From the NCBI GenBank assembly GCA_003216775.1, contig QCII01000010.1, positions 1 through 63,800 of the forward strand: a stretch of DNA of 63,800 nt, written 5' to 3'. Below, piece after piece: positions 21,907-27,026 of the stretch. A program made the position numbers and the translations under genes. The stretch's first letter is position 1. Every line of letters starts with the position of its first letter. This DNA is from Prochlorococcus sp. AG-402-K21 (GTDB lineage Bacteria; Cyanobacteriota; Cyanobacteriia; PCC-6307; Cyanobiaceae). Under the pieces are notes generated by a model. That model saw only the letters and a program-made list of their open reading frames with translations, did not search any database and had not been told where the DNA came from.

Positions 21907-21954
21907 ATGGGATCTAATGAGTTGGCATGAACCATAAAATGAAGTCCCCAGGCG
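21907..21954 (+). repeat. tRNA-Asn 3'-end remnant A with phased ATG motifs
   Basis: 21940-21954 reads TGAAGTCCCCAGGCG and matches the sequence spanning the tRNA-Asn 3' end (26951-26965) at 13 of 15 positions, in the same orientation. On its left, ATG occurs at 21907, 21917 and 21927, exactly 10 bp apart, as the TGAC/TGAA array does beside the real tRNA. Confidence 0.65.
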
Positions 21955-21970
21955 ATCTAGTATTTAACAA

Positions 21971-22008
21971 AATATGTCTTGATATGACACTATTTGTCGT
22001 GACATATT
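21971..22008. repeat. Inverted repeat and 10-bp-phased TGTC/TGAC right of remnant A
   Basis: AATATGTC at 21971-21978 is the exact inverse of GACATATT at 22001-22008. Inside, TGTC, TGAC and TGTC start at 21975, 21985 and 21995. The first motif is 31 bp from the remnant core, almost the same offset as in remnant B. Confidence 0.6.
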
Positions 22009-22050
22009 ATGAAAGAAATAAGAAAATAAACGCATATTATGACGAATAAA

Positions 22051-22368
22051 TTAGTTTTTTATTTTTTTAATTTTTTCTAAATTCCATTTATCAAATATTA
22101 ATTTCATTTCTCTTTCGTAGTATCTTACTTTCTTTGAGAAAGGTAGTGTTTGAATAATTATCCCAAATGGAAATTTAAAGAAAGAAGAAACATAAACAAT
22201 ATAAAACTCGATGAAAGAAGGTTTTTCAGGAAGAGGTAAATTTTTTAAATATGCCCAATCAATGCATGATTCTAGTTGCTTATCACTAGCAGAAATATTT
22301 TTTTTACATCTCCAGTAAGAAAATAGATAAATGCAAATAAAAATCGTCAAAGGAAGAAGTCGCAACAT
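22051..22368 (-). CDS. Hypothetical small membrane-anchored protein (island cargo)
   Basis: 105 residues with no family that I recognise. Residues 1-20 (LRLLPLTIFICIYLFSYW) form an N-terminal membrane anchor. The rest is mixed, with an aromatic stretch FIEFYIVYVSSFFKFPFG that may be membrane-associated, and a basic C-terminus (EKIKKIKN). It lies alone between tRNA remnants A and B. ATG start at 22368. Codon use is as AT-rich as the neighbours, so it gives no hint of the donor. Confidence 0.5.
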   Translation of the reverse strand: MLRLLPLTIFICIYLFSYWRCKKNISASDKQLESCIDWAYLKNLPLPEKPSFIEFYIVYVSSFFKFPFGIIIQTLPFSKKVRYYEREMKLIFDKWNLEKIKKIKN

Positions 22369-22518
22369 TAAATATCAAGGATTTGTTCTTTTCATCGATT
22401 CTATAAATAATAGTTTAGTTTTTATGAAAATTCTTGATAATACCCCAACGCACTTCTACTCAGGTAATAATACTCTATGAATTTCAAGTTAATAGGAGGA
22501 CAATATAGATATAGATCT

Positions 22519-22525
22519 AGGAGGT
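22519..22525 (+). promoter_or_regulatory. Strong Shine-Dalgarno AGGAGGT
   Basis: A full AGGAGGT lies 3 nt before the ATG-proximal T's of the 60-residue gene at 22529. A second AGGAGG sits at 22494-22499. Such perfect sites are rare in this window, where most genes have weak or no ribosome-binding site, and they suggest high translation or a foreign origin. Confidence 0.7.
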
Positions 22526-22528
22526 CTT

Positions 22529-22711
22529 ATGAAACTATTCAATCATTTCAGTGTCCTTCCAAGATACCTAACTGCATTTAATTATGCTGGGTTAAACTTG
22601 AATGAGACTCCACAAGAACTAGAAAAATGTAATCCTGAGTTTCAAAACTTTTGGGAGAAAGAATGTAGAGAACATCCAACTAATCAAAATTGTTTAATTT
22701 ATTGTGACTGA
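22529..22711 (+). CDS. Small Cys-containing protein (60 aa) with strong ribosome-binding site
   Basis: 60 residues. Hydrophilic after a short N-terminal part. The C-terminal half has four Cys (EKCNPEFQNFWEKECREHP and NCLIYCD). The start is fixed by the AGGAGGT site 4 nt upstream. I think similar Cys-ended small proteins exist in Prochlorococcus, but I cannot name a family. It lies between tRNA remnants A and B, on the opposite strand to the 22051 gene. Function unknown; the Cys pattern would suit disulfides or metal binding. Confidence 0.65.
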   Translation: MKLFNHFSVLPRYLTAFNYAGLNLNETPQELEKCNPEFQNFWEKECREHPTNQNCLIYCD

Positions 22712-22755
22712 GGATAAAAGCGCAAGAAATAGCAGTAAAAGTGACTGAAAATCTG

Positions 22756-22834
22756 GACGAATATTTCTACTAAAAAACGAATAAAAAGACGAATACTGGA
22801 CGAATAGAATTGCACCATAGTGTCATTATTCGTC
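22756..22834. repeat. GACGAATA repeat array
   Basis: Copies of GACGAATA start at 22756, 22788 and 22799, with a variant AACGAATA at 22776. An inverted copy TATTCGTC lies at 22827-22834. Spacings of 20, 12 and 11 bp keep the motifs roughly on one helix face. It lies 80-160 bp left of remnant B. Confidence 0.7.
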
Positions 22835-22915
22835 TAGATATTTCTCTATCAGAAGGTATTCACTGAAAAAAAAAGCACTGATTAGGTGAATTTGCATGAC
22901 TTTTAAAGACATATA

Positions 22916-22931
22916 AACTCCCCAGGCGGGA
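22916..22931 (+). repeat. tRNA-Asn 3'-end remnant B
   Basis: AACTCCCCAGGCGGGA matches 26953-26968, which spans the end of tRNA-Asn, at 15 of 16 bases in the same orientation. A GC-rich match of this length is very unlikely by chance in this AT-rich DNA. Confidence 0.7.
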
Positions 22932-22948
22932 CTTAATTACTAAATCAG

Positions 22949-25668: not shown

Positions 25669-25769
25669 ACAACTTAAAATTAAGTAACTATAAAAATAAA
25701 ACTTTTAAACACTATATCTCAAACTTTTAAATTTATTTACAACAAATAATTAAATAGTAACTAGATAAA

Positions 25770-25811
25770 TAGCGAACATTTGTTTCCTGGATAGCGAACA
25801 TTTAGCGAACA
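25770..25811 (+). repeat. TAGCGAACA repeats, right cluster (3 copies)
   Basis: Exact copies start at 25770, 25792 and 25803, i.e. 22 and 11 bp apart, the same 11-bp unit as the left cluster at 23001. Same orientation as the left cluster. The clusters bound a 2.75-kb segment with four ORFs. Confidence 0.75.
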
Positions 25812-25928
25812 TTTTTCAGGATTTACAGTAAGTTTTAAGCCGCTATTGATTGTAATTAATCTGTATTCTCGTAATTGCAGTAAAAAAGAGACCCGAAGAT
25901 CTCTATATCTGTTTAGAAGGAGTTATGA

Positions 25929-25968
25929 AACTCCCCGGGCGATAGTCAAGTGGGTCAGATTTGAATCA
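25929..25968 (+). repeat. tRNA-Asn 3'-end remnant C with phased TCA motifs
   Basis: AACTCCCCGGGCG (25929-25941) is an exact 13-nt match to 26953-26965 at the tRNA-Asn 3' end. To the right GTCA, GTCA and ATCA start at 25945, 25954 and 25965, about one helix turn apart. It is the remnant nearest the intact tRNA and the least diverged in the core. Confidence 0.7.
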
Positions 25969-26013
25969 CTCTGACTGCTGTTGAAGTAATAAAAATAGAA
26001 AAATTAGAAAAAT

Positions 26014-26035
26014 GACACATTTTTGACCCATTTTT
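26014..26035 (+). repeat. Tandem TGAC(A/C)CATTTTT before the AlpA-like gene
   Basis: Two adjacent copies of an 11-nt unit (TGACACATTTT, TGACCCATTTT) end about 10 nt before the ATG at 26045. The place overlaps the expected leader or promoter, so autoregulation by the small DNA-binding protein is possible. Confidence 0.6.
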
Positions 26036-26044
26036 AAATTCATT

Positions 26045-26236
26045 ATGAACCTCCAAAATCGTCATTTTTTGAGCATTAAAGAAGTATCAAATTTAATTGG
26101 AATTTCTGTTTCAACTATCAATCGCCAAGTAAAAGAAGGTACATTTCCTCCAAAGCATAAATTATCCGCTCAAAGAATTGGTTTTCTTAAATATCAAATT
26201 GATCAATGGATAGAGGGAGAAAGAAGTAATTGGTGA
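26045..26236 (+). CDS. AlpA-like excisionase / MerR-type small DNA-binding protein
   Basis: 63 residues. The fold is the AlpA type: FLSIKEVSNLIGISVSTINR is a winged-helix recognition region, followed by TFPPKHKLSAQRIGF and LKYQIDQWIEGE, which matches the family's F-P-x-x-x-x-x-x-x-R-x-x-F/W...E-x-W-I pattern. Such proteins regulate or direct excision of tRNA-integrating elements. It is the only mobility-type gene I find in the island. It sits between remnant C and tRNA-Asn with no integrase beside it, so recombinase must come from elsewhere or was lost. Confidence 0.82.
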   Translation: MNLQNRHFLSIKEVSNLIGISVSTINRQVKEGTFPPKHKLSAQRIGFLKYQIDQWIEGERSNW

Positions 26237-26301
26237 TATATTGTTAAAATTTGTTTTGCTAATTTTTATGCATAAAATAGAAATTATTAACTACTAAAAC
26301 A

Positions 26302-26892
26302 TTGATCACTTTTTTATATATTTTTGCAGTATTAGCAATGCTCGCAACAAGAAGTGATGATATTCAAGATAATCCTAAATCTAAGGTTAAATTTTTTACC
26401 TATATGAAGGAGTTTTGGAGTAAATCCTTCAATTTTGAAGGAGTCACAAAAAGAAACGTCTTTTGGATTACTCAGGCATGGATATTTCTACAATCAACTT
26501 TTCTAGTAGGTTTAGGGTTTTGCCTTTTTTTAGATATTAATGATCTTGCTGGATATGGATGGTCGGAAGTTTTCCGTAGCAATGATATTAGACCATTCAT
26601 TTTTATACCTTTTTATTCTTTTCTGATTACATCTCTAATACCTAGTATTTCAATCCAAGTAAGGAGATTAAGAGACACTGCTAGAAATCCACTATGGATA
26701 CTTCTTAGTCTTATACCTTTTGGTGCAATTATACCTTTCATTTTCTATTTGAGTCCATCTAGACAAAAGAAGTTGCCGATGACATTGCAAGACAGACTTA
26801 ATGAAGTTGAAGATTTACTTGATCAAGGAACAATAGATGAAGAAGAATATAAATATATGAGAAAAAAAATACTTACAAAATATGTGGATTAA
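26302..26892 (+). CDS. DUF805-like membrane protein with C-terminal SHOCT domain
   Basis: 196 residues. After a short hydrophobic start (residues 1-15), the DUF805-like part (about 30-155) has FNFEGVTKRNVFWI, several membrane helices, and the VRRLRDTARNPLWILLSLIP segment that marks this family. The final 32 residues (RLNEVEDLLDQGTIDEEEYK and onward) are a SHOCT domain, often fused to membrane or cytoplasmic partners. The start is a TTG at 26302; an ATG at 26338 would drop 12 residues. It is the cargo gene nearest the tRNA. Function of DUF805 proteins is unknown to me. Confidence 0.75.
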   Translation: MITFLYIFAVLAMLATRSDDIQDNPKSKVKFFTYMKEFWSKSFNFEGVTKRNVFWITQAWIFLQSTFLVGLGFCLFLDINDLAGYGWSEVFRSNDIRPFIFIPFYSFLITSLIPSISIQVRRLRDTARNPLWILLSLIPFGAIIPFIFYLSPSRQKKLPMTLQDRLNEVEDLLDQGTIDEEEYKYMRKKILTKYVD

Positions 26893-26910
26893 AAAAGACC
26901 CCAAGTAGCA

Positions 26911-26954
26911 TGACATCGCATGACGTGACTTGAAGTCTCTTGACGTTTATTGAA
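26911..26954 (-). repeat. 10-bp-phased TGAC/TGAA array abutting tRNA-Asn
   Basis: On the plus strand TGAC, TGAC, TGAA, TGAC and TGAA start at 26911, 26921, 26931, 26941 and 26951, exactly 10 bp apart, and the last touches the first base of the tRNA gene (26955). An extra TGAC lies at 26926. The regular phase on one helix face is what a recombinase or accessory-protein array would look like. Confidence 0.75.
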
Positions 26955-27026
26955 CTCCCCGGGCGGGATTCGAACCTGCGACCAATCGATTAACAGTCGA
27001 TCGCTCTACCGCTGAGCTACCGAGGA
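26955..27026 (-). tRNA. tRNA-Asn(GTT)
   Basis: 72 nt, minus strand. Starts TCCTCGGTAGCTCAGCGGTA and ends CCCGCCCGGGGAG. The 7-bp acceptor (TCCTCGG with CCGGGGA) pairs fully with one G-T, the discriminator is G, the D-arm GCTC...GAGC pairs, and the anticodon loop CTGTTAA gives GTT. The T-arm GCAGG/CCCGC has one A-C mismatch. CCA is not encoded. It appears to be the integration site of the island: its 3' end is copied at 21940, 22916 and 25929. Confidence 0.95.

Follow-up and report, generated by a model that had tools for sequence, protein, structure and literature searches.

How does an interval of small genes come to be punctuated by partial copies of a neighbouring tRNA gene when it holds no recombinase? 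This question is raised by a 63,800-nt stretch of Prochlorococcus sp. AG-402-K21 (contig QCII01000010.1; hereafter the window, meaning the stretch at its full length), in which the DNA between a DUF7326 gene and tRNA-Asn(GTT) carries three partial copies, or stubs, of the 3´ end of the tRNA gene. The explanation that we consider probable is that four or more site-specific integrative elements were inserted at the tRNA-Asn 3´ end and form a stack there.

Copies of the tRNA-Asn 3´ end delimit a stack of elements

An earlier reading of the same DNA, made from the letters alone (the original prediction), had placed an intact tRNA-Asn and three same-orientation copies of its 3´ end in this interval. 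We scanned both strands of the whole window with the 13-nt tRNA end CGCCCGGGGAGTT, allowing up to 3 mismatches, in place of the 15- and 16-nt stretches used earlier. The scan returned the tRNA itself at 26953-26965 and three stubs, all on the tRNA strand and at positions that agree with the predicted ones within two bases, as well as one further, unrelated match with 3 mismatches at 56843-56855. The resulting layers are as follows.

26954-27027, minus strand: intact tRNA-Asn(GTT), the integration target, called by ARAGORN
25931-26954, minus strand: element E3, innermost, with AlpA-like and DUF805 genes, between the tRNA end and stub 3; 1024 bp
25929-25941, minus strand: stub 3, tRNA-Asn 3´-end copy, 0/13 mismatches
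22918-25930, minus strand: element E2, between stubs 3 and 2; 3013 bp
22916-22928, minus strand: stub 2, tRNA-Asn 3´-end copy, 1/13 mismatches
21944-22917, minus strand: element E1, between stubs 2 and 1; 974 bp
21942-21954, minus strand: stub 1, tRNA-Asn 3´-end copy, 2/13 mismatches
21843-21943, minus strand: E0, remnant of a fourth, older element, far border approximate; aligns with L096_e1, L161_e2, L232_e1 and L158 (L numbers are our locus handles)
21518-21842, no strand assigned: native tRNA-Asn flank with a decayed native terminator near 21805-21840 (approximate), from alignment to 13 empty sites

The matches are just ~11-13 bases long, which is what could make them chance occurrences. 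Among 1000 dinucleotide shuffles of the 5.4-kb interval, however, none gave a match with at most 1 mismatch, 2 gave one match with at most 2 mismatches and none gave three matches. In the 157 loci compared below (462 kb), where a stub was counted at no more than 2 mismatches to an 11-nt core, 100 stubs lay on the tRNA strand and 1 on the opposite strand, and one locus held five stubs. Given the shuffles, this 100:1 strand bias and the coincidence of E1 ends with cores in six other loci (see below), chance is scarcely credible as the source of the stubs, as the original prediction had also held.

We rejected stub 1 as the border to native DNA, since the E0 remnant lies beyond it: the ~100 bp there align with L158 and with L096_e1, L161_e2 and L232_e1, three of the very short elements that we call minis. 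The far stub of E0 was not found. The predicted count of at least three successive insertions was right in being serial and too low in number, because E0 raises it to at least four. Within the window, stub mismatches increase outward from the tRNA (0, 1, 2), and E3 would be the youngest layer. Over all loci, the outer stub had more mismatches than the inner one in 12 pairs, fewer in 4 and equally many in 13 (p 0.08), a trend that is only suggestive.

Empty and filled sites in related genomes

To the window we added 80 contigs found through the ATP-binding cassette (ABC) transporter gene beside tRNA-Asn (the best 80 of 263 relatives, nearly all titled Prochlorococcus). We also searched 151 genomes of the genus for the tRNA; matches at an expectation value (E) of 1e-32 or below occurred in the window genome and 120 others, and each of the 120 supplied one stretch. 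From the total of 201 loci, including the window, 42 were dropped for identical first 200 bases behind the tRNA and 2 for having fewer than 60 bases, which left 157 distinct loci, 144 of them classifiable and 13 ending before the flank gene.

Empty sites, which the original prediction had proposed to look for, made up 52 of the 144 classifiable loci; the other 92 were filled, 71 with a stub and 21 without. In empty loci the DUF7326 flank gene lay 325-368 bp away in 44 of 52 and nearer in 8. Of the 64 filled loci having both a stub and the flank gene, 34 showed a distance of 300-380 bp between the last stub and that gene, near the empty-site median of 335, and 5 more a distance of 116-118 bp, with two empty sites at 118 and 119 bp. 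The last-stub spacing equals empty-site spacing in these 39 of 64 loci, while the other 25 deviate, mostly by extra intervening DNA.

The layers of the window recur elsewhere. E1 was found whole in six other loci, as 951-981 aligned bp with 87-90% identity to the window, and both of its ends fell within ~10 bp of a core, so that stubs and breakpoints coincide as had been anticipated. It adjoins the tRNA in L162, L179, L189, L213 and L263 and is buried under another element in L205, as it is in the window. Both ends of E2 recur in L196, L201 and L165, its distal end also in L080 and L207, and E3 relatives adjoin tRNA-Asn in L173 (76.9%) and L090 (70.8%). The two outcomes named beforehand as contradicting the original prediction did not arise, as empty sites exist and the shuffles lack matches. 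On these comparisons, serial insertion at tRNA-Asn can be taken as good as demonstrated.

We also considered that elements pass between cells within longer DNA segments, exchanged by homologous recombination in the flanking core genes and the tRNA, with no site-specific recombinase. The flanks are conserved enough to recombine, and the tyrosine integrase family of the tRNA-Asn elements (see below) occurs in just 16 of the 151 genomes. Such exchange cannot, however, create stubs, empty-site joints or element orders that differ between loci (E1 innermost in five, buried in L205 and the window), and we judge it improbable as the origin of the stack, though it may still spread stacks that already exist.

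A terminator-like hairpin goes with the tRNA-Asn site

A hairpin followed by a T run lies behind the tRNA in E3, and counterparts in different states of preservation lie in the displaced layers.

26891-26941, minus strand: E3 terminator-like hairpin and T run behind tRNA-Asn; -16.5 kcal/mol, fold z -3.2, equalled by 0 of 200 shuffles
25880-25904, minus strand: E2 displaced hairpin and T run, short but intact; -6.8 kcal/mol, z -1.5
22862-22890, minus strand: E1 decayed terminator; -1.2 kcal/mol, z 0, intact in relatives

Searching within 95 nt of the tRNA and calling a hairpin strong at -8 kcal/mol or better, we detected a hairpin with a T run in 91 of the 92 filled loci (strong in 78) and at 51 of the 52 empty sites (strong in 45), compared with any such hairpin in 275 of 945 control windows inside elements (strong in 33). 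The tRNA-proximal ends of the 105 non-empty loci, the 13 unclassified ones included, formed 33 clusters at 75% identity; the founder had a hairpin in 33/33, a strong one in 27, and 25 of the 105 ends resemble native flank. The T run in elements usually begins 40-60 nt behind the tRNA. A terminator-like hairpin as a rule in elements at tRNA-Asn is well supported by these counts. As far as sequence goes, integration displaces the host terminator and the element supplies a replacement, and we infer that the hairpins terminate transcription.

Hairpins left behind by later insertions tend to be weaker. Post-stub stretches had a strong one in 64 of 100 cases and proximal stretches in 78 of 92 (Fisher p 0.0016), and in adjacent pairs the inner hairpin was stronger in 64, weaker in 35 and equal in 1 (p 0.005). 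In the window, the stems of E1 (-1.2 kcal/mol) and of the native terminator (-2.3 kcal/mol) are gone. The predicted placement of the newest insertion next to the tRNA gains from this outward weakening and from the mismatch gradient in the window, less from the stub trend over all loci. As a separate observation, E1-type terminators (L038, L162, L189 and others) resemble the native tRNA-Asn terminator; either the host's was taken up or the "native" flank is an ancient element end.

Relatives of the tRNA-Asn integrases lie near tRNA-Ser genes in 9 of 13 stretches examined (types gct, tga and cga; L293, L294, L296, L297, L298, L299, L301, L303 and L305), with tRNA-end stubs in 8 of the 9. A strong terminator was found at none of these 9 tRNA-Ser flanks and in none of 12 post-stub stretches there, and at tRNA-Ser(GCT), in 30 loci of 114 places in the genus, a weak hairpin occurred in 4 and a strong one in 0, native or not. 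Because tRNA-Ser flanks used by the same integrase family are without a strong hairpin, it is the site, and not the family of the integrase, that the hairpin follows. The same contrast bears on the idea that the hairpins belong to the recombination site as inverted repeats bound by protein and resemble terminators only incidentally. Their near-fixed distance to the core and their overlap with 10-bp-phased repeats on the tRNA side would suit such a role, but T runs follow the stems, the empty native sites have hairpins as well, integrase relatives at tRNA-Ser have elements without them, and the stems weaken after displacement; we regard this account as distinctly unlikely.

Iterons, phased repeats and minis

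Short repeats in regular register were seen in all three window elements.

26013-26032, minus strand: E3 distal 11-bp repeat pair AATGNGTCA
25945-25985, minus strand: E3 distal arm, repeats ~10 bp apart
25770-25812, minus strand: E2 iterons ATGTTCGCTA, tRNA side of cargo; three copies, 11-bp register
23001-23021, minus strand: E2 iterons WTGTTCGCTA, far side of cargo; two copies at an 11-bp interval
22949-22983, minus strand: E2 distal arm, GGCA four times at exact 10-bp intervals
22756-22806, minus strand: E1 iterons TATTCGT(C), tRNA side
22041-22048, minus strand: E1 iteron TATTCGTC, far side
21975-22003, minus strand: E1 distal arm, GTCA/GACA repeats, most at 10-bp intervals

The E2 word ATGTTCGCTA flanks the cargo on both sides, one far-side copy being TTGTTCGCTA, and the two ends of E1 have the 8-mer TATTCGTC in common; a tRNA-side partner pair for the E3 repeat AATGNGTCA was not found in E3. 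Self-identity among 67 distinct distal ends has a lag-11 maximum of 0.64 near -102 from the core (mean 0.33) and climbs to 0.51 from -59 at lag 10 (mean 0.34); among 152 tRNA-side ends it climbs to 0.50 from +13 at lag 10 and to no more than 0.41 at lag 11. We dropped a reading of the phased repeats beside the tRNA as recombinase arms only, as that stretch largely overlaps the terminator hairpin. Words of at least 10 nt common to both end zones were detected in 45 of 79 large closed elements, compared with 7.6 on average and at most 17 over 200 permutations; for inverted matches the figure was 11.

The 11-bp words could plausibly be arm-type sites of an integrase, and the 10-bp series may be sites of the integrase or of an AlpA-like excisionase. 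Both readings are made by analogy, with phage lambda and with KplE1 (PMC2951348). Searched against solved structures, the integrase profile gave no match at E 0.01.

The 100 closed elements fall into 21 minis of 169-257 bp, none of 258-549 bp and a remainder of 550-14,637 bp. Minis consist of the two ends only, with room for hardly any gene, and an 11-bp array was detectable in 16 of the 21, versus 20 of 365 control windows. For 13 minis we found a full-length counterpart matching both ends, and for 8 none; in 12 of the 13 the counterpart matches overlap by at least 8 bp within repeats, in 11 inside the called array. The minis are probably full elements from which the cargo was deleted between iterons, a plausible reading of these junctions. 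Entry of cargo at a repeat would leave the identical pattern, and the junctions do not settle the direction.

Elements without an integrase were probably moved in trans

The original prediction had noted a single mobility-type gene in the interval, which Pfam and PHROG both support.

26045-26236, plus strand: AlpA-like gene in E3, putative excisionase/regulator, 63 amino acids (aa); Pfam Phage_AlpA PF05930, E 4.9e-10; PHROG excisionase phrog_66, 3.3e-9

It had also stated that the recombinase is absent. This holds for the window elements and not for the site at large, as some elements at tRNA-Asn in other genomes do carry one. A tyrosine integrase is encoded in 5 of the 100 closed elements (L153, L259, L182, L178 and L079), and a 61-codon integrase remnant lies in L254_e1. 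L302, on a broken contig, is a further integrase case in which native flank follows the distal core. The integrases of L259, L182, L178 and L079 are 34-38% identical to that of L153, for which Pfam gives only the general phage integrase family. Querying every filled region with 28 sequences of the tyrosine integrase family revealed no further integrase; members of these families were thus not overlooked, which still leaves room for other, unrelated recombinases. The window genome had no match to the tRNA-Asn-element integrase family at E 1e-10; its one gene of the phage integrase family lies elsewhere, on contig C3 (392 aa). An AlpA-like gene lies near the distal end in 35 of the 79 large closed elements, 30 of them without an integrase and all on the same strand. 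We also observed a small serine recombinase in all five integrase-bearing closed elements and one other, L093_e1; the one at L153:14786-15364 matches a PHROG DNA invertase.

E1 to E3 are without an integrase, are bounded by tRNA-end copies and have ends that match those of integrase-bearing elements in plan. Some iterons, too, are common to both classes: L178_e1 (integrase) and L208_e1 (integrase-less) share an identical 20-mer, L182_e1 and the integrase-less L185_e2 both carry the word AAATGGTCGGG, and L259_e1 and the integrase-less L036_e1 have a 20-mer with one difference. Such common repeats fit a supply in trans. Because the rare integrase-bearing elements have the same end plan and some of the same iterons, movement was probably in trans, and we think it likely on the whole that the window holds accreted cassettes without integrases that moved in this way.

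In the mechanism that we propose, each element entered at the tRNA end and restored the tRNA gene by means of the copy of that end which it carried, shoving older elements outward and leaving a stub at its far side; the comparison of loci supports these steps. Counted from the tRNA, an element consists of a terminator-like hairpin, 11-bp iterons, the cargo, in many cases a second, matching set of iterons, an arm phased at 10 bp and the core. Elements without an integrase would be served in trans by the rare integrase-bearing ones at the same site, and deletion between iterons would probably produce the minis. The window stack is probably immobile unless an integrase of the tRNA-Asn family arrives. 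More tentatively, the site might work as an integron-like cassette system, with tRNA-Asn as the platform, 95 of 100 closed cassettes integrase-less and served in trans, each re-terminating the tRNA, which would allow many to be stacked with no harm to it, and iterons letting cargo be deleted or exchanged down to ~200-bp minis that are attachment (att) sites only. We hold this wider version to be possible and rather less than an even bet.

Alternatively, each layer may have brought its own integrase and lost it, nothing having moved in trans, which would make the stack a set of dead relics similar to cis-mobilizable elements (CIMEs). The 95 closed elements and the window genome without an integrase of the family, the 61-codon remnant in L254_e1 and the resemblance of minis to deletion products would all be expected of relics. 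We nevertheless consider this unlikely, if still to be reckoned with, as integrase-less elements retain both ends, iterons and often AlpA-like genes even when innermost, and as the integrase-less E1 occurs in six other loci. In one of these, L263, E1 is 88.2% identical to the window, compared with 81.2% and 76.6% for the two flanking core genes, and this higher identity speaks for lateral movement of E1.

Several observations weigh against the mechanism proposed above. In the other five loci E1 (86.7-90.4%) and core-gene (82-91%) identities are close and decide nothing, so that it is L263 only that argues for lateral movement. A stub went undetected in 21 of the 92 filled loci, the increase of stub mismatches away from the tRNA falls short of significance when all loci are taken together, and the loci are related by ancestry, so that the counts are not of independent events. 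The E0 stretch still folds (-7.2 kcal/mol), with a pairing unlike the stem of its relatives, and the order of decay in the window is not strict. No word of at least 10 nt is common to both ends in 34 of the 79 large elements, E3 and E1 included, and the E1 and E2 iteron words occur in none of the five integrase-bearing elements. An arm-binding domain found no support, the structure model of the integrase, built from two sequences, being unusable (mean predicted local distance difference test score, pLDDT, 43.9). Lastly, no excised circle or movement was seen, and three end patterns gave no match in viral contigs. Those contigs held one weak integrase relative, and the only match of phage records to the stack spans 64 bp and comes from a single cyanophage, P-TIM68, in two of its records.

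Relation to known elements

Stacking at the end of an RNA gene is already known from CIMEs, additive islands and the ssrA islands of Dehalococcoides; the comparisons here draw on parts of the papers cited. CIMEs have no integration genes, keep both att sites and are stacked by repeated insertion at one site (PMC5704250). E1 to E3 are similar in being integrase-less, stacked at one site and in keeping putative attL- and attR-like ends; they differ in size range (0.2-15 kb here), in the replacement terminator, in the iterons on both sides of the cargo and in the ~200-bp minis. The Dehalococcoides ssrA islands lie in tandem with direct repeats of the RNA-gene 3´ end, and 15 are without an integration module (PMC3146451); they are larger, have a transfer-messenger RNA (tmRNA) as target and a serine integrase, and the word "terminator" is absent from the main text of that paper. 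In the additive flexible genomic islands of Alteromonas (PMC4119200) and Methylophilaceae (PMC10872708), a conserved tRNA is the target for cassettes, and the last 20 bases of tRNA-Lys are repeated in varying number. The tRNA-Asn site likewise combines a conserved tRNA target with presence or absence of cassettes among relatives (92 filled and 52 empty of 144); the parts available of those papers describe no end architecture, and "terminator" does not occur in PMC10872708.

The original prediction had pointed to tycheposons, which are Prochlorococcus elements targeted to tRNAs, with a tyrosine recombinase in the autonomous ones (as cited in PMC10872708, PMC10187409 and PMC11389934) and a size of 4-200 kb (as cited in PMC10872708). 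The genus and the insertion at a tRNA 3´ end agree. E1, E2 and E3 (974, 3013 and 1024 bp) are below that size range and are without a recombinase; a tyrosine integrase is present in some tRNA-Asn elements of other genomes. Picocyanobacterial integrase elements at tRNA-Phe and tRNA-Cys have a tyrosine integrase near the tRNA and often a small serine recombinase (PMC10187409), as do the five integrase-bearing closed elements here, at a different tRNA. The openly accessible literature, surveyed in part, yielded no description of such elements with replacement terminators or with cargo lying between iterons.

The site would offer a readable order of gene gain at one place in an abundant marine cyanobacterium and a concrete route for adding very small cargo with no enzyme in the cassette. 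Such small integrase-less cassettes suggest how a stripped-down ocean microbe may gain and shed genes at one fixed spot. The difference between tRNA-Asn and tRNA-Ser in terminators suggests that the need for an intact host tRNA transcript shapes att sites, and the pattern of iterons and minis provides a model, open to testing, of how small an att site can be and of how cargo is lost.

Cargo and flanking genes

Besides the AlpA-like gene, the elements and their native border hold the following genes.

26302-26892, plus strand: E3 cargo, DUF805 membrane protein (Pfam, 3e-12)
24175-25668, minus strand: E2 cargo, 497-aa TPR protein (Pfam TPR families, best 1.6e-34)
23536-24147, plus strand: E2 cargo, 203-aa protein, no Pfam or PHROG family
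23055-23345, plus strand: E2 cargo, 96-aa protein, no Pfam or PHROG family above cut-off
22529-22711, plus strand: E1 cargo, 60-aa protein, no Pfam or PHROG family
22051-22368, minus strand: E1 cargo, 105-aa protein, no Pfam or PHROG family
21158-21517, plus strand: flanking gene, DUF7326 (Pfam, 1.4e-17)

DNA relatives of the two small E1 genes (segments 22045-22392 and 22442-22712) are scattered over many places in other genomes. Some part of the stack is matched at E 1e-10 in 145 of the 151 genomes, and among the matches listed most cover these same two segments. A relative of the 60-aa gene directly adjoins the integrase gene of an element at the tRNA-Asn site in another genome (L302:2700-4180). 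In the native spacer, two direct repeats of the type AAGAACAGTAATTAGAACA at ~21620-21735 are conserved across the 13 aligned empty sites, amid otherwise variable DNA between DUF7326 and tRNA-Asn.

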